The notes beneath the pieces are model-generated. The model did no database searches, had not been told where the DNA came from, and worked only from the letters and a program-made list of their open reading frames with translations. Shown piece by piece: positions 1 through 25,352 of a stretch of DNA of 25,934 bases. The stretch covers positions 1 through 25,934 of the IMG/VR virus record IMGVR_UViG_3300020470_000187; one strand, given 5' to 3'. Position 1 is the stretch's first letter; each line of letters begins with the position of its first letter. A program made the position numbers and the translations under genes. This DNA is from a virus.

Positions 1-27
1 CACATCAACATCATTAGTTTGTGTCAT
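1..27 (-). CDS. start of a further gene, cut by the window edge
   Basis: An ATG at 27-25 opens a frame that stays open to the window edge and reads MTQTNDVDV. It begins three bases after the stop codon of the 541-residue fibre-like gene. A purine-rich stretch GGCGGGAC (45-38) lies 10 bases upstream and is made of the last codons of that gene, the same arrangement as at the two preceding gene junctions. Nine codons are too few to identify a product. From its place behind fibre-like genes it is probably another virion fibre or structural protein, but that is inference from position only. Confidence 0.5.
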
Positions 28-30
28 AGT

Positions 31-1656: not shown

Positions 1657-1658
1657 CT

Positions 1659-9548: not shown

Positions 9549-11117
9549 TTAAAATTCCAAGATGATTTTAATGTCTTCCTTTTGTCTAGAGTTTCTAGTA
9601 ATCAATGGACGATTATCTAAGTAAATTATTTCACCCGACCCTTTATTTATCTCAGGTGAAGCAAGACCATTTGTAAAATTGACTCCTAATGATATAACTT
9701 TATTACCAGTAGGATTGGTACTGATACCAGTAAAGTTTTGATCCACTGTTGCAGTGAATCCACTTGTAGGTGCAATTATACTTTCAGCAGATGATTCAAA
9801 TGATAAAACCTTTGCTTCAGTTGTAATTCCAACATAGTCAGTTTGATCTCCTGTTGTCTGATTGAAGTATAGGGATCTATCTTGATAATACTTAATTACA
9901 TTGGTATCAGTATCATAAGAAACAATATACCCCTCTGCTGTTCCTCCAGTTACAGTTTGTTGTATTTTTTCACCAATTGTTGGAGTACCAGTTGGTGATA
10001 TAATTTTAACTGCATTAACTGATGAAAAATCATTAGCAGTATATGTAGATGTTGATCCTATTGAGGTTGGATTTTTTATAATACTTATTTGTGCAAATTT
10101 TGTGTCAGTAGGAAAATCTTTTGTAGAATCATCAAACCTTGCATAAATTAAAAGTTTGTCTGTTCCTAATTCTTTATATAAATCAAATCCATGACCTTTT
10201 GAAGGTGGTATGATGGGTATTAACTTTGCATGATTTCCAACTGATACTCCAGAATTACCAAGTGGTCCTAAATCAACCATACCATAAGTGTAACCTTGTC
10301 CACCAGAAGACACGTTAGTTTTAATTATTTTACCATTACTATCGGTGTCAATAACAACTTTCGCACCACTTCCATCTCCAATAATATCAACTTCTCTACC
10401 AACAATATTTTGTGAGTATCCAAATCCCTGTTTATCTATATAAACTTTTTTAATTTGGTTGTTATTTATTGTTGAGTCACCATTTTCACGAACAGATTGT
10501 ATTTGTGTTTCCGATGATGTAGGCCAATCACCTGGTACAGAAATATATTCAGTTGAATCAAATTTAATAATATCACTTGGAGGAACTGTAAATAGATATT
10601 TCCAAATGTATCCATCTCCACTTTCACCTGCTCTTGATGGTTCTAAATCTGTAAATAGTGGTTCATCTTGAGATGCATTACCTGTAGTGCTTATTCCTGA
10701 TGATCCATTATCAATACAAACATAAACATCAAAGTTTTTATTCATTACATAATAATTTGATGCATATAATCTTGTTGAGTTTGTTACTGGTGAGGGACTA
10801 TTGACACTATAATCATGACGATACATTTCATATCTCGTTCCCTGTGTCCAATTTCTTCTTGTTATTAGTCTTCTTACATTCGCAGTAGTTACCTTCTTAC
10901 CAAATATCTGAGTATCACCTGCGTGATTCATATAGTTGATATTATCAGTTGGGTTTGGTGTATTTGTGTTCCATGCGGTGGTTCTACCAAAACCTACTGC
11001 AAGTGCTGGATTAGCAAGACCAACCACAACATAATATGAATTAGCAGAGTTATCTACAGTCTCTACGAAATTATTTGCATTTAGAATTCTAAATTGATCT
11101 GTTACAATTGCAGCCAT
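9549..11117 (-). CDS. 8: baseplate wedge protein gp8 (522 aa, enlarged)
   Basis: A homologue of T4 gp8, which bridges gp6, gp7 and gp10 in the baseplate wedge. Recognisable blocks: FGRTTAW (43-49), RRNWTQGTRY (87-96), GDGYIWKYLFTVPPSD (168-183), TEYISVP (189-195), FAQISIIKNP (341-350) and the end SGEIIYLDNRPLIT (494-507), each with a close counterpart in T4 gp8. At 522 residues it is well above the 334 of T4 gp8; the extra length lies in about residues 221-300, which carry an NGGxGY-type module pair, and 360-490, which include GEKIQQTVTGGTAEGYIVS. It follows the giant gene after a 26-base gap containing a late promoter. I see no convincing Shine-Dalgarno; the start is chosen because gp8 homology begins close to it (IVTDQFR matches the T4 AIVTSKFR region). 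Confidence 0.9.
   Translation of the reverse strand: MAAIVTDQFRILNANNFVETVDNSANSYYVVVGLANPALAVGFGRTTAWNTNTPNPTDNINYMNHAGDTQIFGKKVTTANVRRLITRRNWTQGTRYEMYRHDYSVNSPSPVTNSTRLYASNYYVMNKNFDVYVCIDNGSSGISTTGNASQDEPLFTDLEPSRAGESGDGYIWKYLFTVPPSDIIKFDSTEYISVPGDWPTSSETQIQSVRENGDSTINNNQIKKVYIDKQGFGYSQNIVGREVDIIGDGSGAKVVIDTDSNGKIIKTNVSSGGQGYTYGMVDLGPLGNSGVSVGNHAKLIPIIPPSKGHGFDLYKELGTDKLLIYARFDDSTKDFPTDTKFAQISIIKNPTSIGSTSTYTANDFSSVNAVKIISPTGTPTIGEKIQQTVTGGTAEGYIVSYDTDTNVIKYYQDRSLYFNQTTGDQTDYVGITTEAKVLSFESSAESIIAPTSGFTATVDQNFTGISTNPTGNKVISLGVNFTNGLASPEINKGSGEIIYLDNRPLITRNSRQKEDIKIILEF
9648..10040 (-). other. second insertion in gp8 relative to T4 gp8
   Basis: Between FAQISIIKNP and SGEIIYLDNRP, where T4 gp8 has only a few tens of residues, this protein has about 130 (360-490). 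They include GEKIQQTVTGGTAEGYIVSYD, written here as two parts GEKIQQTVTGG and TAEGYIVSYD, a module of the G-E-x-[IV]-x-[GQ]-x-T-[GS]-G-x-A type also seen in the DUF4815 protein. The boundaries are approximate because they rest on recalled T4 sequence. Confidence 0.5.
10218..10457 (-). repeat. NGGxGY-type module pair inserted in gp8
   Basis: Residues about 221-300 contain VYIDKQGFGYSQN, then GDGSGAKVVID, then VSSGGQGYTYGM. This is the same strand-turn pattern found many times in the giant protein and twice in the DUF4815 protein. T4 gp8 has no such segment at this place as far as I recall. Confidence 0.6.
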
Positions 11118-11143: not shown

Positions 11144-11310
11144 CTACCCAAGATCCTTTCTTAATGAACCAGTGTCTCTAAGACCAAAATCTCTTCTCTG
11201 AATAGATGGGTAAGTTGTTAATCCAGAGTCTATTGTCAACCCAGTAACCCCGATTGATATTGGATTTTCTCCTCTAGTGAATCCTGATAGTCTTCCCCAT
11301 GAGAATCCAC
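11144..11310 (-). other. conserved C-terminal tail of the giant protein
   Basis: The last ~55 residues contain GGFSWGRLSGFTRGE, then GLTTYPSIQRRDFGLRDTG. This ending is one I recognise from large structural proteins of cyanomyoviruses. The basic, non-repetitive end differs from the preceding repeat modules and could be a docking or trimerisation segment; that role is inference. Confidence 0.5.
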
Positions 11311-14300
11311 CAATCGCAGTTCCAAGTCCAACAGAAGTATCAATACCTGTGGTATTAACACCAGTCATAATATTGCAAGTAATAATACCAACACCTTCAT
11401 TAAATGCATTAATAAAGTAGATGTTGTCAACACATGTAGTCCCTGTAGCAACAACTGTGGAGTTGTCACTAACAACAGAAGTTACACCATGACCAACTTG
11501 TGTCTCAAATATGTATATAGGATAACCTTCTTTCAAATCACTAAGTGAAGAATTTGGGTTATTTGTAAGGTCTGCATTTAAAGTAAATTTAAGTGCAAGA
11601 GGATGACCTATACCATCAGTAACCGCAACACCTACGATATCACCATCAAAACCCTCTACTGTTGTTATTGTATCAATATCCTCCTTAACAGCATTTGGTA
11701 AAGCTGATAAAACTTGAGGAACTGCTGATCTTGTATATCCAAAACCAGGATTTGTTATTGTAGTAGATGTTATAACACCATTAGTTATTGTTCCTGTAGC
11801 AATTGCTGTTGTACCTACACCAACACCAATCGCATGAGGTGCTGATATAGAAATCGAGGTTGTAGAACCCACATAACCACTACCACCATTTGTGATAGAC
11901 AATGATGAAATTGTACCAGCAGCAGAAACAACTGCGGTAAATCCAGCAGCAACTGGGTTTGTTGAACCAACTATCAATCCACCAACACTACCTACAACTA
12001 AACTTGAGAAATCCTCTTCATAGTTAAAGAACCTTGCATTATCAACAAATAATTGTGTTCCTGTGGTAGTTACATCATCAATTATCTTTGCGGTTGGATA
12101 AACTTGTGATTCAATTGAATCTCTAACTTTTGATACTATTTCACCATTTACTTTCTTATCTACTTTTTGTTTTGTCCAACTAAGTGGTTTGAAGTTTCTT
12201 TCATCTACACCAAGTTCTGTGTATAAGTTAGTTTCTACTTCATCAGATGCAGAAATTGCATAAATTGTTCTCTGCTCCTGTGTTGTAGTAATTCCTGAAT
12301 TTTCTTTAAATACCTGAACTACATCACCTGTTTTAATTGTTGGTGATACGGAGGATCCAGCAGCAACTTGTACAGAGTCAACACCTGTAGTTCCTTTATA
12401 GAAGTAAATATCAATTATATCTTCAGGATCAGGTGCTTGTGCAAATTCAAATGATGTACCTCCATCAAATGTATATGCCTCACCAGGATCTTGAACAACT
12501 CCGTTGATGAATATTAGTAATAACGCATCTAGATTTATAAGTGATGAATCTGGACTATCTTGATCTACTTCAAAACTTAATAAGTTTGCGTTAAAAACTA
12601 TTGGGAATCTCTTTCTAACACCATCTTGCAAATCTTTTATTGAATCAATGAAATCAAACTCTCCAAAGTTCCATGATGAATATTGATCTCTGAACACATC
12701 AAGAACTGTTAATTCAAATTCAGATACTAAAGAAGACAATCCTTTTGCTGTAACTAATCCAACTGGTTTGAATACATCACCAACTTTAAAGTTATATCCA
12801 TTATTTTCAAGAACAAAATTATTTACTGTAAATTGAGTTGATCCTATGCCAACTGAGGTATTTGCTGCACCAACTTCTATAGTTAATGTAGCACCTGTTC
12901 CTGTATCAGTTGTTGAACCTATACCTCTTCTTGATACACCAGTGATTGGTAGATTTGAGTAAGAAGGTGTTGGTATTGTAATGACTGGATCTGTATATCC
13001 TGTTCCGTTACTATCAATAGTAAATGATAATGATCCACCTGCTCCGACTACAACAGATACAGATGCACCAGATCCAGAACCAGATCTATCAGTTACAGCT
13101 ACTGAAACTGGATGTCTATAACCAGAACCAAAAGTATTATCTGCCTGATATTCAAAAACTGTACCTGAACCAACATAAGCATGAGATACTGTACTTGTAC
13201 CTACATTAGTTGTAAATGTTGTTGTGGATAATATTCCAGTAACACTATATGATCTGTTTGTTTCAATTCCTAGAACAGGATTGAATACTAAACCATCTAA
13301 TCTAACAAACTCATTAATATTTCTAAAATTATGATTTGTAGATGTTGTAATTTCTAATTGACCAGTGGAATTATTAAATGACGCAGTTGAAATTCCAAAT
13401 GTTTGTCCAGTGGTTGGTACTCCAACAATACCTATGATTGATGTTCCAGCACCTGTGATTGCAGATACTTTTGCACCCTCTAGTGGAGCAACACCTAATC
13501 CACCAGTTGATCCTAACGAAACAATTACACCACCTCTTGGTAATTGGTTTTGATTAACATCAACATCACTAATAATCTTTGTTCCATTAGCTGATGTAAT
13601 TCCAGTAAACACTACATTACTTGCACCACCTGATTCTGCAAATTCATAATTATTACCTAAGTTATTAAAGGTAGATGGTGTTTGGAATATTCCATTAAGA
13701 AGAAGTATACTACTACCTGTTTGTATTCCTGCTGTACTTGCACCACCAACTTTTACTGGGAAAGTGGCACCAATACCTGTGAAACTATCTGAAATATCAT
13801 CAAAAATTGTATTTGTACTATAGTCTTGTCTTAAATAGACTCTACCATTAAATTTAGATCTTACAGGATCAACATTCGATGCTGTTTTCTGAGTTGTGTT
13901 AGTTCCTCTTGGTGGTTCAGTAAAATGAATTGTGCTATCTACAATATTATATCCACCAGAGAATAATCTACTTGTTGCTCCTGCAGTATGACTTGTAGCA
14001 GCAGAACCAATAGAACCTCTCTCAACAACTAGAAGATTTACTGAACCAGATTCTGATATTGGTCCAACTGATGTGGTTCCTAAACCAACATTCGTAATCT
14101 TCATAAATTCATTATCAACTTTAATAATATCACCTGATGTGATTGAAGATATTCCTGTAACACTGAATGTTGTAGCACTATCAGTAACTGCAAATTCCAA
14201 ATCAGTTGTTATTGGTGTAAACGCAACTGGAGATTGTATAACACCATCAATTGATAACAATGCCTTTTCATTCTTTTTAAACATCTCAAATTCATGAGCA

Positions 14301-17300
14301 TTTCCAGTGCCAGTGCCTGTAAATGTAACCGCAACACCTGCTAAAGCATCTGGATGTGATTTAGCAATTTTAAATGTATCTTTATTAATTCTTATGGCAT
14401 AAACTTCTGAACCTAACGTACCACCAGCAGTTGCTATACCAGATAAAGTTATGCCTGTAAATGTTGATCCTGGTGAATATACTAACCTCTCTCCTGTTTC
14501 AAAGAAGTGATCAATTATGGTAAAGACACCAGTTGATGCATTTAGAGTTGCAGAATCAGATGGGTTAAATTGTTTTTGGAATATTGGTTTTGAATTACTT
14601 TGTAAAGCAAAACTTGTTTTATTTGATCTAGAACCATTAATTGCATCGTATTGTGCAAATGATAATGATTCAGTCACAGTTCCATATTGTAAATCTGGTG
14701 GTATGTTTAGTAAATCTGTTTCAGAATAGAATGCTTCTGTGAAAGTTTGAACTTGTACACTATTAGTTCCACCACTATATAAAGGATCTGGATGGAAGTT
14801 AAGATTTAAATCATTACCTACAATTGTTGATGAGAATGTACCAATACCAGATGTACTTCCTATTGATAAGAATGGATATTGAGTTGTATGAGTGTCAGTA
14901 GAATCATGTGCAACTAAAACTCTATGAAGAGCACTTGTAGAACCACTTGAAACTCTAACAAAACCTTGAAGTGACGATATTACGTTTTCCGTAAATGTAG
15001 CAATAGTAGATGCTGTTGAAACATTTGAAAAATTAGATTCAAATCTACTTGTTCTCTCTGTTCCATCTAATTGTCCAGATAATTTAAATCTATATGTTCC
15101 TATACCTGCAGCGGTTGTACCAATACCTATGACCCTTGATCTTACTAGAACTTCATTTGCCTGATCATTTTCAAAATTTAATGATAATACATTTGATTCG
15201 ATACTTGAAATAAATGTTCCGATAAAGTTAGATGTAGGACCATCTTCAGTATCAGCATAAAACTCAGATATGAATGAATTTGTTCCATCATGAGTTACAT
15301 ACAAATCTACAAAATTAGTTTGTTCTGTTGTAACATTGTTAACCTCAATTGATGCAAAGAAACCATCTGTATTATTAATATCACTTGAAATTATAAGTGA
15401 TGTAGTTGCTGTAGAAACTGTTGTGTTAATACCAGATAAATTAACAAAACCAATTGATTGAGTTCCTATTCCTGTTAGATTAGTATTGTAGGAAGTTTCA
15501 AGTATTTTTAAATCATAATCATTATTTTCTGGATCATCTGGTGTAAAGTTAATACTAATATTACCAGAAGTATCAATCGCACCTACAATTTCTCCTAGTT
15601 CTGATGGAGTAGTATGTATTTTTGCTCTTTCTGCAGTAAACACATCGTTATCATCTTTATATAAAATAATATCAGATAATTGTGTATTACTATTATTTGG
15701 ATTTCTTACTTGTATTAAAAATGTTGCATATCTTGTATTGATTGATAAATCTAAGAATTGACTTAAACTTGATGCTGTATTTGAAAATAATCTACTTATA
15801 TCATCAATTTCAAGAACTCTGTTTGTTCTACATTCAATATAAGGTGATAATTTTGTATTTCTTAGTTTGAGGAATTTAGATTTACCTTCAACTGTATCAA
15901 TATCTAAAGCAAAATCAAAGTTATTGATAGTATCAACTCTCTTCTGATCAATAAAATCAAGAGCAAGAACATCTGTAAAACTTGAAGTTGTCACACCTGC
16001 ACTTGTTGTTGATGTTATTCCTACATCTGCAAAGTTCTTAAGACCAGTGGTATGAAGTAATCTATTTACGGGATTTATTAAATCTTCATAGGTTATTGGA
16101 CTTTTAACACTATATGATAAATTTTGGTAGTAATCATTATCAGGAGTTACTTGATAATCCTGATTTAATTTACCAATATTATCATTCCATCCTTGATCCT
16201 GTCTTAGTGAATAACTTATTTCAAATATACCACTATTTTTTGAAATATTATTAATTGTTGCTATGTTTCCAGAAACAAATCCTTTAATTAATTGTCCCGA
16301 AACTAAATTAAATGCACCAGGAACTATCTCTTCAATCTTGATTAATTCATTTGTAGACTCAGATACTTTAAGTTCAACTGGTACATATGAAGAACCAACA
16401 AATGCTAATAATTTTTCACCTACACTAAATTTAGATATTTCTTGTGTAACTTTAAATACTGGATAATCATTTTTACTTATTATAACACCAAATGAATTTT
16501 GTGTAGTTTTTGCTATACCTGCGTTACTTGTAAATGGTGATAAATCAAATTCAATTGTTGCTGGATTAGTGTTATTGACTGCTGTAATCTTAAAGAATTT
16601 AAATCCATTATCTGCAGAGTTAAATCCAGTTCCAGTGGTTTCAAATTTTTGAAGTCCTTCAACAAATATTTCCTCATTTACAGAGAAAGGTGCAGTTGTA
16701 AATCCTAAAACAGGAGTAACAAGTGTGCATGTTGCGATACCTGATGATGAATTATATTGTAACTGACTTACTGTTGATCCATTACTATTATTAATAGCGA
16801 ATATTTCATGAGTAATAGATTGTAAACCTTTAGGTGCTACAACAATATCAACTGTGGTTAATGAACTTCCATTTAATCTTCCTGCAATAATCGCACCAGA
16901 TTGATCCTGAACACCTGTCACAGGATTCACAATAACCAAATCAGGAACAGTTGTATAGTTTTTACCACCATCTTCAACATCAATGGATGAAATTGTATTT
17001 GAATTTATTATTGATATTACAGGTGATACAAATGCTTCTGGTTTTAGAGTGGGATCAGATGAATATTCAAAACCTGGATTTAATATTCTAACATCATCTA
17101 TTCTATTAATTGTCGTAGAATCTGGAAGTAAAGTTGCATTAGTTCCTTGAGTTGACGCAATACTAACAAAAGATGGTAAACTATCATACCCAACTCCACC
17201 AAAATCAATACCAACTTGATCTATAGGACCTTTAGCTCTGGAAGATTTAGTAGTATATTTTAGAACACTTGTTTCTGTTGATGCATAAGATAATTTTTCA

Positions 17301-20300
17301 GGAACCTGAGATAATGAAATACTAAAATTAGTATATGATACACCAACTACATGTGGAACATCAAAAATACTATATTGACCACTATAATCACTATCAATAT
17401 AGTTTATTCTATTGTAATTCAATACATCAGTATCTGATGTGCTTATAAAACCTGATTTTTTTAAATTGTAATAGAGTGTTGGTGGATTATCATTAGAATA
17501 ATTTAATGTTAGTGTAGCAGTTGAAGTTACTCCTACTGTACCAACCCCTATAACTTGTAGATTTGAAGTATTTCCTACGGATACAAATTGATTTTTGTAA
17601 TCTTTATCATAGAAAATATTTAATTCATAACCTTGAAGTGATGTATGACCCAATCCAAAAACTAAATTATTATCTCTAAGAATTGATATCGGTGGATTTA
17701 TTAATGAAAATTCATGTGTTCCACCAGTAGAACTTAACTCTATGACACTAGATGGATTGCTTGTTACGTCAATATAAGTTTCACCTAATTTAAAATTATC
17801 ATCATCGACTTTGAAAACATAATAAGATTCATTATTTGACAGACCCTCTGATACTGAGTCTGATGAATATTTAATTTTGTCACCAGTTTTTAAATTATGA
17901 TTACTAATATTAAAATTATTAGATGCAGTTGTAACTCCACTTGATGGGCATGTAATTGGATTTATTAATAAATTCTGTGTTTGATTATCAAATCTAAGAT
18001 CTATTGATCCAGATGTACCTATTCCAACAGATTGATCGGATGTTAGGTTAAGATTAATAATATCACCATTAATCAAATTATGTGCAGTTGATAATGATAC
18101 TACAGCATCAACACGTTGTAGAGTTCCTGTAATTTGTGTTGGGTTTGATTGTAAAAGATATTCAAAACTACTTGATCCAACCGTTGTGTCACCTACAAAT
18201 GCTAATCCATTAGTTGAAGTTGTAAAACCAACTTGTGTTACTATTCCAACATAATCTTTTGATTTTCTTATTATGAATACATCTTCACTATTTCCTGAAT
18301 TTGGTAATGTAAATGTAGAAACACCATCATCATCTGAAACTGTTATTCCATATCCTGATGCAGGTTTTGTTAAAGTAACTCTTTGATTTGTTTTAAATGG
18401 ATGATTAGGTAAGAAAATACTATGAGTTGGTGTAGATACAACTTTTACAATATCACCTAAAGTTGATGTTGCTGTTGATCCTAAACCAACAACCGTACCA
18501 ACACCTATGGATTCATGTGGATTAAAATAAATTAAATCACTTACTTTGGAATCAAATAAATCTGTTTCAAGTGGTATATTAAAATAACTAGGTATTAAAC
18601 TAACTTTTGTTGATACTGTATGAACACCTGATACAGCACCTCTTTTTACTCTTAAAATATTATTTTCATTGAAGGTATTTAAAACTAATAGTTTTTCTGT
18701 TCCAATACCAATACTACTACCAACAGAAATATGTTCTGGTATATGTGAAACGTAAATATCAGTCACGATACCAGTTGTTGCAGAATTTGGAACTTCTTGA
18801 TAAAGAACTGTTTGAGCAGTATCTATTCCTATTTGATGAGAACCTGCTAAACCTTTTATTAAAGATGTACTTAAACCAGATACAATGACATTATCAAGTC
18901 CATTTAAACTTGGAGCCGTAGAAATATAAGCAGCTACATGTTCTGGATTTCTCCACACAAAGACCACATTATTAAAAGTATCGACTGTTGTTTCAATTGA
19001 AGTTATTTCTTTTCCTTGTAATCTCTTAACAGATACACTTAATCCACCACCATTAGTTCCTGTATTGTTAAATATTGCAGAATCACCTATCTCATAATTA
19101 TCACCAGTGTTTATGATATCAATAGAATCTATAGATCCTGATGAGGTTGATTCAACTATTGAAGATTGTTGAGTTATTTCATTTGATTCAATAATGAAAT
19201 CATTATCGGCAAATTCATCAGATACCTTATACGGATAACTATTACGAATTAAATCAGAATTTACAAAATCAAAAGTATTTTGATTTACATTAAAGTTTTC
19301 TGTTGATGGGTCTGATCTGTAAGTTTCTCCAATAAAATATGGGAAAGAGGGTAATAGTGTATTAGTCTCAATCCCAACAAAATATGCATAAATTCCATTT
19401 GGATACTCTGGGGTTCTACCATATCTTCCATTATGAATATCTAAATCACCTGCGTTTGTAAATTTATAGTCTTCTACAAAAAATCCATTACTGAATCCAG
19501 ATGGTCTATCACTAACATTAGATGGATCTAAAATATATCCACTATTTAAAATTCTTATTGCAGAATCATCATCATTTGGATCACTATATCCATAAGGTCC
19601 ATATATTGGATTGCCATCATAAGCCCAACCAATAATAGGAGAATGTCCACTTCCAGTATCACCAAAAGTATCATTACCAATTTGTGTTGAGTACCCAACT
19701 ATTGAATATTCTAACTTATTATTTGTTTCTACTAGTGCTTCATTACTATATCTTGAAAAAGTATTAACTACTAATCCCCTAGTGCTTGCTTCTAATTTTG
19801 CACCAGTGCCTGGAGGAACAACTTTTATATTAACTTTATCCTGTTGATATTGTAAACCACCTTCAAGTATGATAACTTCACTTATTTTACCATCACTAAC
19901 AACTGCTCTTAGTTTTGCACCTAAACCAGTTCCTAATCCAACTACTTCAAGATCAGGAGCAGATGTGTATTCACGACCTCTTGTTTGAACTTCAACATAT
20001 GATATTTTACCATCAGTTATGATTGGTTTTAATTGTGCTTCTTTCCCTGTCTTAACGTTAACTGTAATTGATTTTTCTAAATTAAGAATATCAGATCCAT
20101 ATCCTGAACCATTTTCATAAAGTAAAATATCGGTTATTGATCCTCTCACAACTGGTGTAGCTGTTATAATGCCCACAGATGTGTTTGCAAGTTCATATTT
20201 AATATTTAATTTAACATCAGGATATTTAAATACTTGGAATCCAGTTCCTTGATCTGAAAACTTAATATAATCTTTGCGTCTATACTCAGATGTAATTGTT

Positions 20301-23300
20301 CCACCAAGACCAGCATTAGCAATTCTAAATGCATTATCATTAACTTTTAAAACCTGATAAAAGTTTGAAGTTGTAGTAATACCAGTAGATGTAGATAATC
20401 CAGTTATATTTGTTGGTAGTGTTGATCCTATTCCTACCGCAGTTGAATATACAATTTTATCACCTTGATTAAATCCATGATTATCAAAATGAATAGTATT
20501 TGTTATTGTGTTTATTCCTGTTGGTTTAACAAATACTTGTCTATTTTCATAACCACTTCCACCATTTATAACTCTTACATCCTTTAAAGTTTTTTCTTCA
20601 TTTAAAAGTCTAAATTTATGAACACCAATTTTGTTTGTTGTTGTAAATCCAACTGTATTAATACCTGCATTATAATCTGATAATGTCTGGAATAACTTTA
20701 TAGTGGTTGGATTTATGACTGATGGATAGTATGTTGATGCATTTACTAAAGTTGTTGTACCCAATCCAACAACGGATGTCCCTGCATCATTACCCACTGT
20801 CCCTATTCCAAGAGGAGGGTTATTATTTCTATCATAAATTAGTGGTTGTCCACTTACAATATTATGTGCATTTAAAAATGTAATAGTTTCATCTACGTTA
20901 TCAATTCCACCAGAATCTGTTAGTAGTCTAGCATCAAATGATATTTCTCTTCTTCTCTCCGATAACACTGGTTCCAAAATAGCACCAGATCCATTACCAC
21001 CTTCTATGGTTATTGATACAACCCTATTAATATCAAAATCTTGTGGATCAATTTGAACATCTTTAACACTTCCAGTTATAACAGGTCTTATCAATGCGTT
21101 TGTGCTACCAGCACCTGGTCCTGATAATTCTATTGTAGGAGGTTTTATAATATCATAATTACTACCTCCGTTCAGTAAATTAACCTTATCTAAAGGACCA
21201 AAAAATATTTTATCTTCTGATTTATAATTTCTTATTTCAACTCCATTTATCAACATACCAGTTGTGCCTGGTGTTGTAACAACTGATGTAGAATTTGTAA
21301 GATTAGGATTTAAAGGAAATTTCTTTAATAGTTTTTGAGCAGCTATTTCCTGTTCGATAATGCCAACTAAAGAAAATGTATGAGTTCCAGAACCAGATGG
21401 TAGTGCTTCAAACTCTTCAAAGTCAGCTATAGGTATAAATGATCTTGATCTGTAAAGACGTATTTGGTTTGGATTGCTTAATACTTCAACAAAATATGAT
21501 GCTTGTGGTAAATTTGGTAAAACTGTACCTTGAGCAGTGTAAAAAATCTCATCACCAGTTATAAATGGTACTGGACTTGGAAATGATAAAATACTATATT
21601 TAAGTGTGTTTGCATTATATCCAGACTGAGGTAATTGATTACCTGCTATCGCATTAGGTAGTATTGCCTTTGGTAATGATGCAGTAATTTGATATGATGG
21701 TAAAGAATTAGATGCAACATAAAAATTTGTATTTGATTCATTATATACATTTGTTATATCACTTGTTAATACATTATTTCCAAATTCTATGTCTGCTATT
21801 GCACTTGTTGCACGATTTATTACCCTTCTTAAGTCATATTCTCTATTTGGATCTGGGAATAATGTGATTCCTGGTTGATTTGTTAAATTATTAATTGAAA
21901 TAGTACCAGTTGGTTCATCAATATTCCCTACAGTTCCTGTGGCTATTTTAGTTTCTTCATTTCTAAATAATACTTCAATATTATCTCCTACTTTTAAACT
22001 CGATTTATCAATATCTCTTGTGAACAGAACAATATTAGAACCAGATACACTTTCAATTCTAAATCTAGATGATGTATTATAAATCCATGAATTTGCAAAT
22101 ATTTGTTTTTTAGTTTTACCCTCTATAGGATTTGTTATCTTTTCACCAACATTTCTGACAGATATTTTTTCTCCCTCAGTTAATAATCGAATATCTGAAG
22201 TTGGAACAAATTTTGATAAGACTCCTGTTAATCTAATTTCTACTTTTTTGGTTAAATCACCATTTTCATAACCATAATAAAATTCATCTGATCTTAAATC
22301 ATCAGAAGTTGATATATCATCAACAATATTCTCACAACCAAAGAATTGATTGACTGATTTATCACTATAAAAAATATTAGTGCTGATTCCAGACACTAAA
22401 GTTCCTGTTTGAGCAAATCCAACAGTAGAATCAACAGTTATTACAGAAGATCCTGCGGATACATTACCAATAACTTTTGTTTTGCCTGGTATATTAAAAG
22501 TTCCTTCAATTAAATCAACTTCATTAAATCCAACAAATAAAGCAATCTTATAATATACCTTTCCCTTTCGTGTTAAAGGTTCAACCTCGGATATAGAGGC
22601 TCTTGTTGCACTATCAGTTGATTTGATTATGGTTTGACCAACTAAATTTATTGGATTTCCAGATAATGCTTCTGCTAATACTATTTCTCTTCTAATATAC
22701 TCTGCTGAAGATGGTTTTATTAAAAATTGCTCTAAATCTACAATTGTAGGAGTTGTATTATATAAAACATTAAATAAAATTCTAAATGACTCTTCTGTTC
22801 CTTTTGATTGATATAATGATTTTGAATTTTTAATAAAATTACTTACATCTAGATTATTGACAAAATTTACATTTTCTAAACCAGGTGTGAGTAATTGTTT
22901 TGTTTTTTTATAAAACTCTTTAAGAAAAAGTGCACTTAAATTAACTACAGTTGCATCATTGTCATGATTAATTGCAGATGAATCTGTAAATACCAATTCT
23001 GTCGGATTATTTTCTGCATGATAAGTTGTAATACCACTAAAACCACGAATACAACCTGTAAAACTATTAGTTGTGATTCCAGTATATGTTATAACTTCAT
23101 TTTCAATCTTAAAAAGACCATATTCGTTTGGAAATCCTTTGGTACTAGTAACATTTACTGTGGTATCTGTTGTAGTAATACCACTTGTTAACTTAGTCTC
23201 TCCAACAACAACTTCAGGAGTTAAATTATCTAATTTTACATATTGATCTAAATTATCAGTAAGGTCAATTGCACCTCCCTGATATTCTTGGGAAATATAG

Positions 23301-23413
23301 TACTGCTTTAAAAAATCTACTGCCTTTGGGCTCTCAGATAAGAAAAACTCTGGGATTTGGTTTTCAATTATCTGTTGGACTTTGACTCTTTTATCAATTC
23401 CAGTGGTTATCAT
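11144..23413 (-). CDS. giant modular virion protein (4089 aa) with gp7-like wedge core, in the gene 7 position
   Basis: An uninterrupted 12.3-kb gene between gp6 and gp8. Residues ~20-310 resemble the C-terminal core of T4 gp7: AVDFLKQYYISQEY (31-44), FLKEFYKKTK (163-172), YQSKGTEESFRILFNVLYN (201-219) and NLVGQTI (256-262), so the wedge anchor is probably at the N-terminus. Then come about twelve NGGxGY-type modules, about eight H-x-F-x-x-GD modules, a YHYH-type domain (about 1235-1365), a conserved segment QGWNDNIGKLNQDY (about 2405), a threefold repeat (about 2560-2895), three [ND]G[VI]xQ modules, and a C-terminus with PTAKIIDDVTT, GGFSWGRLSGFTRGE and YPSIQRRDFGLRDTGSL, shared with large cyanophage structural proteins. 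Only about seven cysteines occur; no signal peptide or membrane segment. GAGG lies five bases before the ATG, inside the end of gp6, and the gap to gp6 is one base. T4 gp7 has about 1032 residues. Virion location is well supported; the gp7 assignment is moderate. Confidence 0.85.
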   Translation of the reverse strand: MITTGIDKRVKVQQIIENQIPEFFLSESPKAVDFLKQYYISQEYQGGAIDLTDNLDQYVKLDNLTPEVVVGETKLTSGITTTDTTVNVTSTKGFPNEYGLFKIENEVITYTGITTNSFTGCIRGFSGITTYHAENNPTELVFTDSSAINHDNDATVVNLSALFLKEFYKKTKQLLTPGLENVNFVNNLDVSNFIKNSKSLYQSKGTEESFRILFNVLYNTTPTIVDLEQFLIKPSSAEYIRREIVLAEALSGNPINLVGQTIIKSTDSATRASISEVEPLTRKGKVYYKIALFVGFNEVDLIEGTFNIPGKTKVIGNVSAGSSVITVDSTVGFAQTGTLVSGISTNIFYSDKSVNQFFGCENIVDDISTSDDLRSDEFYYGYENGDLTKKVEIRLTGVLSKFVPTSDIRLLTEGEKISVRNVGEKITNPIEGKTKKQIFANSWIYNTSSRFRIESVSGSNIVLFTRDIDKSSLKVGDNIEVLFRNEETKIATGTVGNIDEPTGTISINNLTNQPGITLFPDPNREYDLRRVINRATSAIADIEFGNNVLTSDITNVYNESNTNFYVASNSLPSYQITASLPKAILPNAIAGNQLPQSGYNANTLKYSILSFPSPVPFITGDEIFYTAQGTVLPNLPQASYFVEVLSNPNQIRLYRSRSFIPIADFEEFEALPSGSGTHTFSLVGIIEQEIAAQKLLKKFPLNPNLTNSTSVVTTPGTTGMLINGVEIRNYKSEDKIFFGPLDKVNLLNGGSNYDIIKPPTIELSGPGAGSTNALIRPVITGSVKDVQIDPQDFDINRVVSITIEGGNGSGAILEPVLSERRREISFDARLLTDSGGIDNVDETITFLNAHNIVSGQPLIYDRNNNPPLGIGTVGNDAGTSVVGLGTTTLVNASTYYPSVINPTTIKLFQTLSDYNAGINTVGFTTTNKIGVHKFRLLNEEKTLKDVRVINGGSGYENRQVFVKPTGINTITNTIHFDNHGFNQGDKIVYSTAVGIGSTLPTNITGLSTSTGITTTSNFYQVLKVNDNAFRIANAGLGGTITSEYRRKDYIKFSDQGTGFQVFKYPDVKLNIKYELANTSVGIITATPVVRGSITDILLYENGSGYGSDILNLEKSITVNVKTGKEAQLKPIITDGKISYVEVQTRGREYTSAPDLEVVGLGTGLGAKLRAVVSDGKISEVIILEGGLQYQQDKVNIKVVPPGTGAKLEASTRGLVVNTFSRYSNEALVETNNKLEYSIVGYSTQIGNDTFGDTGSGHSPIIGWAYDGNPIYGPYGYSDPNDDDSAIRILNSGYILDPSNVSDRPSGFSNGFFVEDYKFTNAGDLDIHNGRYGRTPEYPNGIYAYFVGIETNTLLPSFPYFIGETYRSDPSTENFNVNQNTFDFVNSDLIRNSYPYKVSDEFADNDFIIESNEITQQSSIVESTSSGSIDSIDIINTGDNYEIGDSAIFNNTGTNGGGLSVSVKRLQGKEITSIETTVDTFNNVVFVWRNPEHVAAYISTAPSLNGLDNVIVSGLSTSLIKGLAGSHQIGIDTAQTVLYQEVPNSATTGIVTDIYVSHIPEHISVGSSIGIGTEKLLVLNTFNENNILRVKRGAVSGVHTVSTKVSLIPSYFNIPLETDLFDSKVSDLIYFNPHESIGVGTVVGLGSTATSTLGDIVKVVSTPTHSIFLPNHPFKTNQRVTLTKPASGYGITVSDDDGVSTFTLPNSGNSEDVFIIRKSKDYVGIVTQVGFTTSTNGLAFVGDTTVGSSSFEYLLQSNPTQITGTLQRVDAVVSLSTAHNLINGDIINLNLTSDQSVGIGTSGSIDLRFDNQTQNLLINPITCPSSGVTTASNNFNISNHNLKTGDKIKYSSDSVSEGLSNNESYYVFKVDDDNFKLGETYIDVTSNPSSVIELSSTGGTHEFSLINPPISILRDNNLVFGLGHTSLQGYELNIFYDKDYKNQFVSVGNTSNLQVIGVGTVGVTSTATLTLNYSNDNPPTLYYNLKKSGFISTSDTDVLNYNRINYIDSDYSGQYSIFDVPHVVGVSYTNFSISLSQVPEKLSYASTETSVLKYTTKSSRAKGPIDQVGIDFGGVGYDSLPSFVSIASTQGTNATLLPDSTTINRIDDVRILNPGFEYSSDPTLKPEAFVSPVISIINSNTISSIDVEDGGKNYTTVPDLVIVNPVTGVQDQSGAIIAGRLNGSSLTTVDIVVAPKGLQSITHEIFAINNSNGSTVSQLQYNSSSGIATCTLVTPVLGFTTAPFSVNEEIFVEGLQKFETTGTGFNSADNGFKFFKITAVNNTNPATIEFDLSPFTSNAGIAKTTQNSFGVIISKNDYPVFKVTQEISKFSVGEKLLAFVGSSYVPVELKVSESTNELIKIEEIVPGAFNLVSGQLIKGFVSGNIATINNISKNSGIFEISYSLRQDQGWNDNIGKLNQDYQVTPDNDYYQNLSYSVKSPITYEDLINPVNRLLHTTGLKNFADVGITSTTSAGVTTSSFTDVLALDFIDQKRVDTINNFDFALDIDTVEGKSKFLKLRNTKLSPYIECRTNRVLEIDDISRLFSNTASSLSQFLDLSINTRYATFLIQVRNPNNSNTQLSDIILYKDDNDVFTAERAKIHTTPSELGEIVGAIDTSGNISINFTPDDPENNDYDLKILETSYNTNLTGIGTQSIGFVNLSGINTTVSTATTSLIISSDINNTDGFFASIEVNNVTTEQTNFVDLYVTHDGTNSFISEFYADTEDGPTSNFIGTFISSIESNVLSLNFENDQANEVLVRSRVIGIGTTAAGIGTYRFKLSGQLDGTERTSRFESNFSNVSTASTIATFTENVISSLQGFVRVSSGSTSALHRVLVAHDSTDTHTTQYPFLSIGSTSGIGTFSSTIVGNDLNLNFHPDPLYSGGTNSVQVQTFTEAFYSETDLLNIPPDLQYGTVTESLSFAQYDAINGSRSNKTSFALQSNSKPIFQKQFNPSDSATLNASTGVFTIIDHFFETGERLVYSPGSTFTGITLSGIATAGGTLGSEVYAIRINKDTFKIAKSHPDALAGVAVTFTGTGTGNAHEFEMFKKNEKALLSIDGVIQSPVAFTPITTDLEFAVTDSATTFSVTGISSITSGDIIKVDNEFMKITNVGLGTTSVGPISESGSVNLLVVERGSIGSAATSHTAGATSRLFSGGYNIVDSTIHFTEPPRGTNTTQKTASNVDPVRSKFNGRVYLRQDYSTNTIFDDISDSFTGIGATFPVKVGGASTAGIQTGSSILLLNGIFQTPSTFNNLGNNYEFAESGGASNVVFTGITSANGTKIISDVDVNQNQLPRGGVIVSLGSTGGLGVAPLEGAKVSAITGAGTSIIGIVGVPTTGQTFGISTASFNNSTGQLEITTSTNHNFRNINEFVRLDGLVFNPVLGIETNRSYSVTGILSTTTFTTNVGTSTVSHAYVGSGTVFEYQADNTFGSGYRHPVSVAVTDRSGSGSGASVSVVVGAGGSLSFTIDSNGTGYTDPVITIPTPSYSNLPITGVSRRGIGSTTDTGTGATLTIEVGAANTSVGIGSTQFTVNNFVLENNGYNFKVGDVFKPVGLVTAKGLSSLVSEFELTVLDVFRDQYSSWNFGEFDFIDSIKDLQDGVRKRFPIVFNANLLSFEVDQDSPDSSLINLDALLLIFINGVVQDPGEAYTFDGGTSFEFAQAPDPEDIIDIYFYKGTTGVDSVQVAAGSSVSPTIKTGDVVQVFKENSGITTTQEQRTIYAISASDEVETNLYTELGVDERNFKPLSWTKQKVDKKVNGEIVSKVRDSIESQVYPTAKIIDDVTTTGTQLFVDNARFFNYEEDFSSLVVGSVGGLIVGSTNPVAAGFTAVVSAAGTISSLSITNGGSGYVGSTTSISISAPHAIGVGVGTTAIATGTITNGVITSTTITNPGFGYTRSAVPQVLSALPNAVKEDIDTITTVEGFDGDIVGVAVTDGIGHPLALKFTLNADLTNNPNSSLSDLKEGYPIYIFETQVGHGVTSVVSDNSTVVATGTTCVDNIYFINAFNEGVGIITCNIMTGVNTTGIDTSVGLGTAIGGFSWGRLSGFTRGENPISIGVTGLTIDSGLTTYPSIQRRDFGLRDTGSLRKDLG
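12470..14265 (-). repeat. three [ND]G[VI]xQ fibre-type modules in the giant protein
   Basis: Three segments share a hydrophobic strand ending in [ND]G[VI]xQ and a following [YF]-x-F/F-x-x strand: LLSIDGVIQSPVAF (about residue 3055), ILLLNGIFQTPSTF (about 3240) and IFINGVVQDPGEAYTF (about 3640). The last is followed by FAQAPDPEDIIDIYFYKG, a pattern common in phage fibre proteins. The copies are diverged at DNA level. Confidence 0.6.
14729..15736 (-). repeat. threefold ~120-residue repeat in the giant protein
   Basis: Three successive units share the order strand [DV]L[YV]-x-[HD]D, then a long hydrophilic stretch, then a strand ending LN[FL]. Unit 1 has IILYKDDNDVFTAERA and GNISINFTPDDP (from about residue 2580). 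Unit 2 has VDLYVTHDGTNSFISEFYAD and NVLSLNFENDQ (from about 2700). Unit 3 has RVLVAHDSTDTHTTQYPFLS and NDLNLNFHPDP (from about 2825). Each is followed by a strand such as VLVRSRVIG or VQVQTFTEAFY. These are probably tandem beta-sandwich domains; binding function unknown. Confidence 0.65.
19320..19711 (-). other. YHYH-type domain in the giant protein
   Basis: About residues 1235-1365 contain GSGHSPIIGWAYDGNPIYGP, GYSDPNDDD, LDIHNGRYGRTPEYPNGIYA and FPYFIGETY. This order matches the YHYH domain family known from secreted bacterial proteins and from large cyanophage structural proteins. The tetrapeptide YHYH itself is not seen: the expected sites read GSGH and IYAYF. Confidence 0.75.
22484..23356 (-). 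other. gp7-like wedge core at the N-terminus of the giant protein
   Basis: Residues about 20-310 align by eye with the C-terminal part of T4 gp7 (recalled T4 segments YSTKGIEASYKFLFKVLYN and LVGQTIYTATGRC against YQSKGTEESFRILFNVLYN and LVGQTIIKSTDSA). A segment at about 73-155 (GLFKIENEVITYTGI...IRGFSGITTYH) has no T4 counterpart and appears to be a module inserted between helices of the core. Confidence 0.6.
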
Positions 23414-23414
23414 A

Positions 23415-25352
23415 TTATCCTCTTACCAGTGCTCCATTTGCATAACTTGATGTTATCTTATACCCGACACCTGATATCTGTTCACCAGAAGTAATTGTGT
23501 CTTTAACCATATTTATAGTGCTATCACCAACAGAAAAACTCAAATATAAGTCCTTCAATCCAATGACATCATTTGATTCGGGGAATGCTTGAATTTCTAT
23601 AATATTATTTGGTTTTATAGTTGAAGTTATGTTTACAGTTGAAATAATTACTTCACCATGATCATAATCAACAATTCCAGCTGATGCTACAACTAACTGA
23701 TTTCGAGATAATTCAGTATCTCCTTTGACAATTGCTAAAATACCTCTACCACTTCCATCTAAAGTGCCATCACTTCTTTTGTTAGGTATATCAGTAAAAT
23801 ATAAAGTATCACTTTGACCCTGAATGGTAAATCCAGTACTTTTAATATTTTTACCTTCTGGATTAATATGAAATTTGTTTCCGTAACATAATTCATATTG
23901 AGCAAATGTATTTGTTAATGCTCGAAGATTTCTTCTAATTCTTACCCTTGTAATATTTGAAGTAATTGCATCATCAATATTATCAATAACATTTAATATT
24001 TTACTATATTTAAATCTTCCACCAAATTTATTAATATCTGTTGATGATCCATATGTAAGTAAACCATTTGTGATACTAGTCTTTAATTCTGATACTGTGG
24101 TAACTTTTGATGCATCATAATATACAAAAGAGTCTAATTCAACATATAATAGCTTAAGATCAAGTATTTTTTGATTTATACCCGCTAACGAATAACTCTT
24201 TAAGTTTGATAAAATTGCACTTTTATCAAAATCAGAGACAAACTCACCATTTTTTGGTTTTATTGTAATAAAAACTGTTCCAAACTCAGGTGGATCAAGT
24301 TCTTCTCCTCCCACAACTGATACTGACTCAGTATTTGGATATATTTGTTGTATTATTGACTCGTAATCCCTAGCTGTAACTGCCCTGTATTGCGATGAAT
24401 ACAATCTAGGTGCAAAATACTTAATTGAACTAATTGTCTCAATGTCACCCCCATTAGCTGCGGCTGAGATTGTTGCAACAATTGGTGTGGTTGATGGTAA
24501 TTGTATTTGATTAGTAGATGATGTAACACTACCAGTATATTGGAATGATGCAGGACCATTTCCTTCAGTACCATCTGTGGTAATATAAGAAACTGTGATC
24601 ACTGCATCGTTTTCTAATTTTTTACCAAATACACCATCCCCAAATAATAACTCATATCTCTCATCAGTTGTTTCTTGTATTAAATATGTTTCTGATATAT
24701 CAGTAATGTTTAAAATATTATCTACTTTACGATATTCTCTACCTAAACCAGTATCAGATGCACCTTTTACGTAAACTTTAATGGTTGAAGTATCAATAAA
24801 TGAATTTTCAAGTATAAATCGTTGATCTAAAGACCCATCAACTAGGAAATTCTTTGATAAGTAAGTTCCTTGATATATGACTATGTTATTAAATGATCCA
24901 GTGCTACTTATTATATTGCCATCTGCATCAGTTGCCTGTGTTGTTGCAGTTGTAATTGACTCTGGAATTGAAAATACGTATGATGAGTCATTTGATGCTC
25001 CTACACACACCAAACCTGCTTGAAGAGTAAGAGTTGGTGTGTTTGTAGCAGTTGTAATGTTAAAAGAAACTGTTGCTTGAGCAGCAGTTCTTGATCTTGG
25101 CACATATCCAATGTTTCTTGCAAGAGAAACAACGTTTTCACGTAATGTAGCAGAGTCTAAGAACGACTCATTCACAATCATGTTAGAGTTAAACGCTGTA
25201 ATATACGTATTGTATGCTAAAGTATCAATTAGAACTGAAAAATTTGATCCTTCAAAGTCAAAATCGGTAAAATCTGAGTTTGCACGGAGATAATCTTTAA
25301 TTGAAGTCTTGATTTGATCAAAATCTAAATTAGTAAACTTAGTAAAAGGCAT
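23415..25352 (-). CDS. 6: baseplate wedge protein gp6 (645 aa)
   Basis: A homologue of T4 gp6 (about 660 residues), the baseplate J-like ring protein whose dimers link neighbouring wedges around the hub. The highly conserved N-terminal block is clear: DYLRANSDFTDFDFEGSNF (20-38), then VLIDTLAYNTYITAFNSNM (40-58), NESFLDSATLRENVVSLARN (61-80) and IGYVPRSRTA (81-90). The middle has LLFGDGVFGKKLENDAVITV, typical of baseplate J-like proteins, and the C-terminal half has ITARDYESIIQQIYPNTESV-type sequence (read here as VTARDYESIIQQIYPN), also characteristic. Length is normal for the family, with no truncation. The ATG directly abuts the gp25 stop (no gap), with only a weak AAGA upstream, so coupled translation from gp25 is likely. 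Its final codons provide the GAGG Shine-Dalgarno of the giant gene. Confidence 0.94.
   Translation of the reverse strand: MPFTKFTNLDFDQIKTSIKDYLRANSDFTDFDFEGSNFSVLIDTLAYNTYITAFNSNMIVNESFLDSATLRENVVSLARNIGYVPRSRTAAQATVSFNITTATNTPTLTLQAGLVCVGASNDSSYVFSIPESITTATTQATDADGNIISSTGSFNNIVIYQGTYLSKNFLVDGSLDQRFILENSFIDTSTIKVYVKGASDTGLGREYRKVDNILNITDISETYLIQETTDERYELLFGDGVFGKKLENDAVITVSYITTDGTEGNGPASFQYTGSVTSSTNQIQLPSTTPIVATISAAANGGDIETISSIKYFAPRLYSSQYRAVTARDYESIIQQIYPNTESVSVVGGEELDPPEFGTVFITIKPKNGEFVSDFDKSAILSNLKSYSLAGINQKILDLKLLYVELDSFVYYDASKVTTVSELKTSITNGLLTYGSSTDINKFGGRFKYSKILNVIDNIDDAITSNITRVRIRRNLRALTNTFAQYELCYGNKFHINPEGKNIKSTGFTIQGQSDTLYFTDIPNKRSDGTLDGSGRGILAIVKGDTELSRNQLVVASAGIVDYDHGEVIISTVNITSTIKPNNIIEIQAFPESNDVIGLKDLYLSFSVGDSTINMVKDTITSGEQISGVGYKITSSYANGALVRG
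23510..23517 (-). promoter_or_regulatory. candidate T4-type late promoter TATAAATA inside the end of gp6
   Basis: An exact TATAAATA on the minus strand, within the codons for NMVKDTI of gp6, 96 bases before the ATG of the giant gene. It could give the giant gene its own late transcript. It is inside a coding region, so it is less certain than the intergenic copies. Confidence 0.5.

Follow-up and report, generated by a model that had tools for sequence, protein, structure and literature searches.

A giant gp7-like baseplate wedge protein whose core appears to be interrupted by an insertion of about 2,080 residues

Introduction

What occupies the gene-7 slot of a phage in which the stretch between the genes for gp6 and gp8 is a single open reading frame (ORF) of 4,089 amino acids (aa), and where in so long a protein does the gp7 core lie? 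The ORF (11144..23413, minus strand, ATG start, zero internal stops) is part of IMG/VR record IMGVR_UViG_3300020470_000187, a marine viral genome fragment (~26 kb) whose 25,934 bases are all that is available for the virus and are referred to here as the window. The calculated mass of its product is 438.5 kDa, as against 119.2 kDa for T4 gp7. A preliminary description of the locus placed the ORF in the gene-7 slot, saw a likeness to the C-terminal core of T4 gp7 near its N terminus, and proposed that this core stands at the start, ahead of about 3800 residues of modules.

T4 gp7 is a monomer of 119.2 kDa that is present in six copies per tail and has domains that meet gp9 and gp10 (PMC3004832). 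It comprises a helical domain (643-689; Pfam PF21428, Gp7_helical), domain V (766-861; PF21427), a segment directly after it (~860-897) and domain VI (920-1012; PF21456). According to a statement in PMC7029224, T4 gp7 is absent from pelagi- and cyanomyophages, with VrlC as its substitute, and the excerpt of PMC3037559 treats gp7 in the non-cyanophage core. Here, we provide evidence that the giant ORF is the gp7 of its phage and that neighbouring pieces of the gp7 core lie far apart in it.

Results

To compare the giant ORF with T4 gp7 in both directions, we used two profiles. A1 is a 91-sequence N-terminal profile that consists of the window protein and 90 ORFs taken, after redundancy limits, from 316 candidates; ORFs cut at the 5' end, T4-type ORFs and nine loci of named phages were left out of it. 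A2 is a 12-row profile of T4 gp7. Searched against the PDB sequences, A1 matched gp7 alone at E<=10 (expect values (E) of 7.1e-5 and 5.5e-4), and the match at 7.1e-5 covers gp7 733-829; a single-sequence phmmer search also gave two matches at E<=10, both gp7 and both weak (E 0.18 and 0.20). In a profile-to-profile comparison by hhalign, A1 matched T4 gp7 with prob 93 and E 2.9e-7. Conversely, A2 had the giant ORF as its sole match in the window at E<=1 (E 3.8e-7), over T4 positions 722-811 only. The matched part of T4 gp7 is its C-terminal third, about residues 644-897 of 1032. In PHROGs, the giant protein matched phrog_2885 'baseplate wedge subunit' (E 0, 3,738 bits), with residues 2-3358 as the best stretch, aligned to 2-3362 of 4179. 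Window residues 1-320 missed the curated cut-off of PF23786, Baseplate_wedge (E 2.1e-4, 21.3 bits vs 27), which was passed by the slot proteins of the Methylophilales phage Melnitz (896 aa; 40 bits) and the Stenotrophomonas phage Yut2 (503 aa; 29.4 bits), and T4's own gp7 Pfam models were absent from the window protein's matches at E<=0.1.

We also searched nine whole phage records. A1 found the slot protein in all nine, that of T4 at gp7 with E 1e-6; among the matches listed, A1 also matched other structural genes, via columns 50-145 and 503-622 (repeated modules) only. With A2, five of the eight non-T4 records gave a match to the slot protein (E from 6.4e-5 to 7.2e-4), and none of the records gave a match to any other gene at E<=1. 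Thus, no second gene 7, the finding that the preliminary description had named beforehand as speaking against its reading, was detected in these nine records, the window genome itself being a fragment. The slot proteins of P-HM2, Melnitz and S-PM2 join the family via A1, which holds close relatives of theirs.

Predicted structures pointed to the same protein. An AlphaFold model of window residues 1-610 was of moderate confidence (predicted local distance difference test (pLDDT) 60.3, predicted TM-score (pTM) 0.26). When it was compared by Foldseek with 350,542 PDB chains, ranks 1 and 2 were gp7 (5iv5_BJ, E 7.2e-5; 9f4a_A0, E 4.6e-4), and 5hx2_A, the entry named gp7 in the PDB sequence search, was at rank 6; the global TM-scores of the model to gp7 were low (0.09). 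VIA placed residues 240..407 of the model onto 765..851 of 5iv5_BJ in the same register as the sequence comparison (Z 7.3, root-mean-square deviation (rmsd) 3.8, 86 aligned), and the VIA results for this model were dominated by a module at 68-162. For a model of the 503-aa Yut2-type protein (pLDDT 64.1, pTM 0.37), the first three of the 350,542 chains were gp7 (best E 9.1e-5, prob 1.00), with 5hx2_A at rank 2. VIA paired 61..429 of this model with T4 702..888, that is up to the segment after domain V, with a module resembling domain I of the sheath protein gp18 in between (Z 8.3, 161 aligned); the rmsd of 15.9 means that the parts were not superposed as a single body. In total, these profile and structure comparisons indicate that the giant ORF is the gp7 baseplate-wedge subunit of this phage. 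They bear out the preliminary description in the likeness to the C-terminal core of T4 gp7, most of which is found in the front of the giant: A1 matched the PDB, A2 matched the window and the top two Foldseek ranks were gp7. The other outcome that it had named as speaking against its reading, a lack of profile or structural matches, therefore did not occur either. Its coordinates, length and quoted peptides were exact, and the slot between gp6 and gp8 agreed with the ORF, Pfam and PHROGs matches.

The front of the giant protein, which we refer to as the N block, has two parts (all coordinates within the ORF are on the minus strand). Part 1 (residues 5-60, 23234..23401) consists of helices that match the T4 Gp7_helical domain by order and are predicted to form a core-bundle helix-turn-helix; the predicted helices are at 5-19, 22-27, 29-44 and 49-59, at a low pLDDT of about 40-55. 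By hhalign, window 13-51 matched Yut2 10-48 with a prob of 20 only, and Yut2 8-210 matched T4 644-828 with prob 93; the window helices reach T4 643-689 through the short forms only. Part 2 (residues 150-310, 22484..22966) contains helices with the SKGTEESFRILFNVLYN stretch and the equivalent of T4 domain V, and an N-block hidden Markov model (HMM) built from short forms matched window 188-246 with E 1.3e-9. The peptides quoted in the preliminary description are AVDFLKQYYISQEY at residue 31, SKGTEESFRILFNVLYN at 203 and LVGQTI at 257. Between the two parts lies a small beta module (residues 68-140, 22994..23212), which was recognized by its profile copies and by VIA, where it matched a phage Chi tail-tip domain and one from the JBD30 baseplate (Z 10.3). 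A second copy is at giant residues 312-361 and another, as a separate observation, is at residues 1952-2012 of the downstream DUF4815 protein. The repeat-module HMMs were iterated on proteins that they then matched, so that their E-values are not independent and are used descriptively only; a GxGY module seed spread no further than the window and P-SSM2.

The segment that directly follows domain V in T4 (~860-897) has its counterpart at residues 2395-2477 of the giant (the C block; 15983..16231), which contain DYYQNLSYSVKSP...LLHTTGL. This assignment comes from a short-form HMM, from hhalign to Yut2 and from a peak of conservation. The C-block HMM, which was built from Melnitz- and Yut2-like proteins alone, matched window 2408-2477 with E 3.6e-8 (4.1e-8 in the scan of 1,167 ORFs described below), P-SSM2 2465-2531 (1.6e-12), S-SM1 3436-3502 (1.6e-18) and S-PM2 1807-1876 (5e-21). 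By hhalign, the window C block matched Yut2 with prob 95.6 and E 1.2e-8, and a pooled C-block profile matched T4 with prob 60 and E 8.5e-5. A pattern YYQ..SY..S...LLH..G begins at residue 2428 in the window, 2485 in P-SSM2, 3460 in S-SM1, 634 in Melnitz and 399 in Yut2, and is seen in the T4 segment too.

To examine the order and spacing of the two blocks, we scanned 1,167 ORFs (1,166 of at least 200 aa from the fetched loci plus the giant) with the N- and C-block HMMs, both trained on short forms (before identical segments were removed, 86 segments for the C block, 81 Melnitz-like and 5 Yut2-like; 74 for the N block, 71 and 3, respectively). Relatives in each giant or Melnitz-like group were the best 80 of 280, 125, 145 and 237 found, and a further alignment, A3, has 77 rows with one Yut2-type row swapped for the lead sequence. 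The N block was matched in 356 ORFs, all in the gene-7 slot and including all 24 T4-type gp7s. An ORF was counted as a slot ORF if it resembled one of six seeds (N-terminal ones for the giants), which makes the restriction of N-block matches to slot ORFs circular in part; this does not apply to the N matches in T4-type proteins or to the C-block results of the giants. The C block was matched in 229 ORFs, of which 228 were slot ORFs; the remaining one was S-SKS1's third open frame, in that phage's own slot. Both blocks were present in 227 ORFs and the N block preceded the C block in all 227, at separations from 103 to 2,694 residues: 103-107 in T4-type, 233-240 in Yut2-like and 358-395 in Melnitz-like proteins, and, among the giants, 1,422-2,517 in S-PM2-like, 2,156-2,213 in window-like and 2,078-2,694 in P-HM2-like proteins, which include S-SM1 and P-RSM4. 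In the window the separation is 2,162 residues vs 106 in T4, for which partial matches were used, so that the T4 values would err, if at all, on the high side.

The C block was found in every non-T4 slot ORF long enough to hold it, meaning one that is longer than the widest separation of its own group would require (window-like, 31/31; P-HM2-like, 36/36; S-PM2-like, 38/38; Melnitz-like, 80/80; Yut2-like, 4/4), and in 21/24 T4-type ORFs, the rest being below threshold. Of the 126 ORFs too short for it, 125 run off their contig and the other, the sole short complete ORF in its group, is the first piece of the S-SKS1 slot. In the S-SKS1 record itself (L083:19992-30183), the gene-7 slot is composed of three slightly overlapping frames without Ns, the last of which has the C block; this may be a real split or a sequencing error.

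A model made by others gave a corresponding picture, which is therefore independent of our HMMs. In S-SM1, PF23786 (284 positions) was matched in ordered pieces within one 6,180-aa frame, at positions 4-53 (E 0.004), 160-221 (E 6.4e-6) and 235-280 (E 2.8e-4), and likewise in P-RSM4, each piece being below the curated cut-off in both. The 4-53 match is to the S-SM1 counterpart of N block part 1. S-SM1 and P-RSM4 had been kept out of the family alignments owing to an insertion in their N block.

Because the N and C blocks are neighbouring pieces of the T4 gp7 core and lie ~2,160 residues apart here, the core is, as judged from sequence, interrupted: an insertion of about 2,080 residues appears to separate them, and a tail of 1,612 residues comes after. 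This alters the anatomy given in the preliminary description. Only the gp7 helices and the equivalent of domain V stand at the front of the protein, whereas the C-terminal segment of the core lies at 2408-2477. It follows that the additional residues would not simply trail the core, since more than half of the growth would be insertion within the core and the rest tail.

Several observations weigh against this interpretation. A2 gave no direct match in P-HM2, Melnitz or S-PM2. A direct hhalign comparison of the window C block with T4 gave only 1.6%, which is no support, and a Pfam search of the window C-block segment gave no family; the window C block is therefore tied to T4 only via the short forms. 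In single T4-type gp7s the C-block HMM was weak (best 4.2e-4; T4 itself 5.7e-3) and missed 3/24. Moreover, both AlphaFold models are modest, with the core-bundle helices at low confidence; 5iv5_BJ and 9f4a_A0 were called gp7 from their lengths (1,004 and 1,031) and residue numbering, the listing holding entry titles only; and a VIA Z of 7-8 is by itself not decisive, since a Z below 8 can reflect a common arrangement.

The lack of a direct window-to-T4 profile match for the C block, and the weak or absent matches in single T4-type sequences, would fit a protein with an N-terminal core only, in which residues 2408-2477 are an unrelated look-alike module and all growth is C-terminal extension, in keeping with the preliminary description. 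We consider this improbable. The order N then C held in 227/227 ORFs, a single Pfam model holds both blocks about 15 positions apart, and the scan of 1,167 ORFs gave a single C block elsewhere than in a slot ORF, namely in the S-SKS1 frame that belongs to this slot. In addition, conservation peaks locally at the C block: identity across window-like relatives was about 89-91% for residues 1-300, 73-85% in 100-residue bins over 301-2400, 87.6% for 2401-2500 and 66-87% over 2501-3600. This peak is not unique, as identity reaches 87.2% in bin 2801-2900 and 85.7% in bin 3201-3300 of the tail. Second-codon-position differences per codon among 14 relatives were 0.039 in the N block, 0.064 in the C block, 0.087 in the insertion and 0.091 in the tail to residue 3456.

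The insertion of the interrupted core (residues 311-2394, 16232..22483), delimited by the N-to-C separation of 2,162 residues, is composed of beta-rich modules. A profile of window 2040-2600 matched Melnitz-like 316-678 (prob 97, E 6e-11), and the last ~330 residues of the insertion resemble the beta-module stretch of the 896-aa form; S-SM1 3382-3498 matched phrog_3465 653-773, with a whole-segment E of 1.9e-16. In Yut2, the stretch before the C block holds the module that resembles domain I of the T4 sheath protein gp18 (VIA Z 8.4; Pfam 3.6e-5, below the cut-off). Since the stretch before the C block resembles that of the short forms, the giant insertion probably grew next to pre-existing beta modules. 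The insertion also contains a YHYH-type domain (residues 1250-1395, 19229..19666; PF14240, E 9.9e-27 at 1255-1352). One copy is also found in each of S-SM1, P-SSM2, S-PM2 and P-HM2, so that all five giants examined have it, with Pfam support for three of these four. The window domain seems to be without what we take to be the eponymous motif, with GIYAYFVG where YHYH would be expected.

The C-terminal tail (residues 2478-4089, 1,612 aa, 11144..15982) matched no Pfam family, and a Pfam search of P-SSM2 residues 2501-5195 likewise gave none at E<=0.01. In the tail of S-SM1, Pfam recognized a lectin-like domain (PF13385, E 1.2e-21), and PHROGs gave matches to families named tail fiber and short tail fiber (phrog_5342, 8.2e-66; phrog_4527, 1.2e-42). 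The domains found would fit a location of the additions at the surface, and a peripheral, fibre- or receptor-binding role may be envisaged for them. Near the lectin-like domain of S-SM1, a 45-residue Phycobilisome fragment (PF00502; L085:23986-24120) was above the cut-off (2.6e-6), an odd and possibly spurious match.

The slot protein following gp6 has very different lengths among phages: 503 aa in Yut2, 896 in Melnitz, 1,032 in T4, 1,937 in S-CREM2 (by coordinates, the slot being inferred), 2,804-3,521 in S-PM2-like phages (3,048 in S-PM2, from a deletion-mutant record), 4,089 in the window, 4,454 in P-HM2, 5,195 in P-SSM2, 6,180 in S-SM1 and 6,603 in P-RSM4. Growth occurred at three sites. 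The first is within the N block (the ~70-aa module of the window protein, with ~500 aa more in S-SM1), the second separates domain V from the C block, and the third is the C-terminal end, where the C block is followed by 49 residues in Yut2, 140 in T4, 205 in Melnitz, 1,172 in S-PM2, 1,612 in the window, 1,788 in P-HM2, 2,664 in P-SSM2 and 2,678 in S-SM1.

Module-sized length differences, and a range from 503 to 6,603 aa in one slot, might also be expected of a polyprotein in which a gp7 core is fused to fibre or decoration proteins and cleaved after translation to leave a short mature wedge subunit. This is very improbable in our view. With the C block beyond residue 2,400, excising the insertion would leave two core pieces. 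Furthermore, ORF122 of S-CREM2, of 1,937 aa by coordinates, yielded 91 unique virion peptides and 27.2% coverage under one ORF in Table 3 of PMC10665884, an excerpt without the peptide positions. Judging from the gene order and sizes in that excerpt, ORF122 would sit between gp6 and gp8; S-CREM2 was absent among the matches listed in tblastn. The S-SM1 protein T4-GC969 was detected in purified virions according to PMC3037559, and the S-SM1 record assigns this label to the 6,180-aa slot protein.

The statement in PMC7029224 and the placement of gp7 in PMC3037559, together with DUF4815 in eight of nine records, T4 excepted, could be taken to mean that T4 gp7 is missing, that the DUF4815 protein (VrlC) substitutes for it and that the slot protein is another structural protein; given the reciprocal profile matches between T4 gp7 and the slot protein, the gp7 top fold matches and the coexistence of the DUF4815 and slot proteins in eight non-T4 records, we regard this as extremely improbable. 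Pfam, PHROGs and the T4 gp7 profile gave no gp7 match in the DUF4815 protein, and three DUF4815 frames matched A1 solely in columns 50-145 (the beta module) and not in 190-305. The name VrlC is moreover muddled: one record of Synechococcus phage ACG-2014h (KF156338.1, 58404-60212) applies 'VrlC protein' to the gene-7-slot protein, which may explain the confusion of VrlC with gp7. The excerpts of PMC6630229 and PMC5587285 concern VrlC naming only.

The interrupted gp7 is flanked as gene 7 is in T4, the order gp6-gp7-gp8 being matched in the window. The large ORFs of the module all share the minus strand and follow one another as gp25 (133 aa, 25353..25754; PF04965, E 4.1e-11), gp6 (645 aa, 23415..25352; PF21379, E 2.2e-18; phrog_219, E 6.5e-200), the 4,089-aa ORF, gp8 (522 aa, 9549..11117; PF09215, E 1.1e-15; phrog_438, E 1.2e-153), the 2,359-aa DUF4815 protein, a type named VrlC in S-SM1 and P-HM2 (2466..9545; PF16075, E 6.3e-57), a 112-aa ORF and a 541-aa ORF. 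The giant ORF is spaced by 1 base from gp6 and by 26 bases from gp8. gp8 is directly next in T4, P-HM2, P-SSM2 and the window; two genes intervene in S-SM1 and one in S-PM2, and Melnitz has further genes before the last wedge gene. For the 112-aa protein (1886-2224), PHROGs gave phrog_3304 'L-shaped tail fiber protein assembly' (5.1e-36), and Pfam gave the LtfC-like PF23926 at a score under its cut-off. The 541-aa protein (31-1656) spans all of phrog_15769 (function unknown, 1.2e-115) and has LKVTGVSTF-type repeats. In IMG/VR contig 2974739009 (121 kb), two T4-type gp7 regions (L340 and L341) lie about 13.6 kb apart, possibly as an assembly duplication.

In tblastn, residues 1-320 matched 468 phage records at E<=1e-3, which by first name word were Synechococcus (371), Cyanophage (61), Prochlorococcus (24), Marine (5), Methylophilales (4) and Pelagibacter (3); the nearest gp6 relatives among the matches listed are Synechococcus phages at 60-63% identity. 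We aligned 80 environmental relatives to the giant, none of which reaches residue 3701 or beyond, where P-SSM2 is the chief cover. Chance or misassembly as the source of the giant ORF was ruled out by the 4,089 open codons, the aligned relatives and variation that is highest at third codon positions.

Discussion

The giant family, the gp7 label in records such as those of P-SSM2 and P-HM2, and phrog_2885 are already known. The size class is not new, since P-SSM2 (5,195 aa) and P-HM2 (4,454 aa) were already annotated as gp7. In the excerpt of PMC5349666, gp7 has its own row in a table, where cyanophages and HTVC008M are given values of about 4-7 (the header lies outside the excerpt), which suggests that gp7 had already been assigned there by others. 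What appears to be new, as far as we searched, is the interrupted-core anatomy; our searches of the open-licence PMC literature gave no description of an interrupted or giant gp7 core. The presence of gp7 in cyanophages that our comparisons indicate contradicts the statement of absence in PMC7029224. For pelagimyophages, the contradiction is based on tblastn matches in three Pelagibacter records, one of which is Mosig EXVC030M (E 3e-4 with the window protein and 2e-8 with that of Yut2).

Among the closest systems, P-SSM2 gp7 (phrog_2885) is a direct relative that aligns with window 2-3363 at 42% and 3457-4085 at 46% identity; it has about 860 additional aa near window residue 3450, and the split core is unannotated in its record. 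P-HM2 gp7, in the same slot and with both blocks, aligns with the window in separate stretches only, mostly at 24-39% identity. The S-SM1 and P-RSM4 proteins also follow gp6 and have both blocks, S-SM1 (phrog_701) with one YHYH domain; they differ by the further ~500-aa insertion within the N block and, in S-SM1, by the lectin-like domain in the tail and the two genes before gp8. Melnitz and Yut2 have the complete gp7 core with the N block first and beta modules between the blocks, but lack the giant insertion and have short tails. T4 gp7 (phrog_964) has the helical part, the domain V equivalent and the C block in the same order as the window; residues before the core, between the block matches and after number ~640, 106 and ~140 in T4 and about 0, 2,162 and 1,612 in the window.

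The preliminary description held that the rest of gp7 had been replaced in the giant. This may be the wrong way round, as the core is N-terminal in the 503-aa, 896-aa and giant forms, and no counterpart of the first ~640 residues of T4 gp7 was detected by profile in the nine phage records, although a diverged counterpart would still be compatible with the sequences.

Altogether, we consider it likely that the giant protein is the gp7 wedge subunit, that its core is split by the giant insertion and followed by a tail, and that the core docks on gp6 with the additions forming the outer baseplate. In such an arrangement, the N and C blocks would fold together and dock on the gp6 dimer through a core bundle and trifurcation, as in T4 and Vibrio phage XM1, with one giant gp7 chain per wedge. 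The insertion would form a large beta-rich arm that exits and re-enters the wedge core, with the tail as a second arm; the two arms would make the outer baseplate, bear docking or sugar-binding domains, and take over the structural work of the N-terminal 640 residues of T4 gp7 and of gp10, gp11 and gp12. XM1 gp17 (242 aa), the T4 gp7 orthologue according to PMC10457771, is far smaller; in the excerpt of that paper, its N-terminal helix-turn-helix lies in the core bundle with gp16, and an internal loop and the C terminus bind tail spikes. By order of parts only, it resembles the giant, which keeps the core and has grown internally and at its C terminus.

A more far-reaching version, which is possible but doubtful, is that gp7 has become the outer scaffold, in which two large beta-rich arms, one from the middle of the wedge core and one from its end, would replace the gp10-gp11-gp12 periphery, bear receptor- or fibre-binding domains and, via both sides of the insertion, covalently wire receptor sensing to the (gp6)2-gp7 core that triggers sheath contraction.

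As to the outer baseplate of the likelier reading, T4 has two copies of the gp9/gp10 N-terminal domain and S-SM1, P-RSM4 and Melnitz have a single copy apiece, with no match in the remaining five of the nine records; for DUF4815, each of the eight non-T4 records gave a match and T4 gave none. From this distribution, the periphery appears to have been rebuilt from other parts. Six giant chains, assuming the T4 copy number, would amount to 2.6 MDa, compared with about 4.5 MDa for the T4 wedge proteins plus gp9 (a hand sum from the excerpt of PMC3004832); the six copies and the large share of baseplate mass proposed in the preliminary description would thus follow by analogy with T4 only.

These observations have consequences for annotation. 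PHROGs scatters the slot proteins: that of T4 is in phrog_964, that of the window in phrog_2885 and that of Yut2 in phrog_26741 (unknown function), whereas those of S-PM2 (phrog_4406) and S-SM1 (phrog_701) are filed under 'head and packaging' and Melnitz (L088:13971-16661) has phrog_3465 ('head closure Hc2') as its best match. For annotators, the proteins filed in this way would be gp7; the 'head' labels are likely annotation errors and will spread.

T4-like cyanophages are abundant ocean viruses, and no solved baseplate of one was found in the literature searched. Both core blocks should sit at the gp6 dimer, so that the insertion must leave and return there, and this would give modellers of cryo-EM maps an anchor. 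That gp7 is present but apparently interrupted corrects the published statement of its absence (PMC7029224). The series from 503 to 6,603 aa in one slot offers a rare view of a structural core that tolerates insertions of thousands of residues, in the course of which gp7 has probably shifted from an internal strut to much of the outer baseplate.

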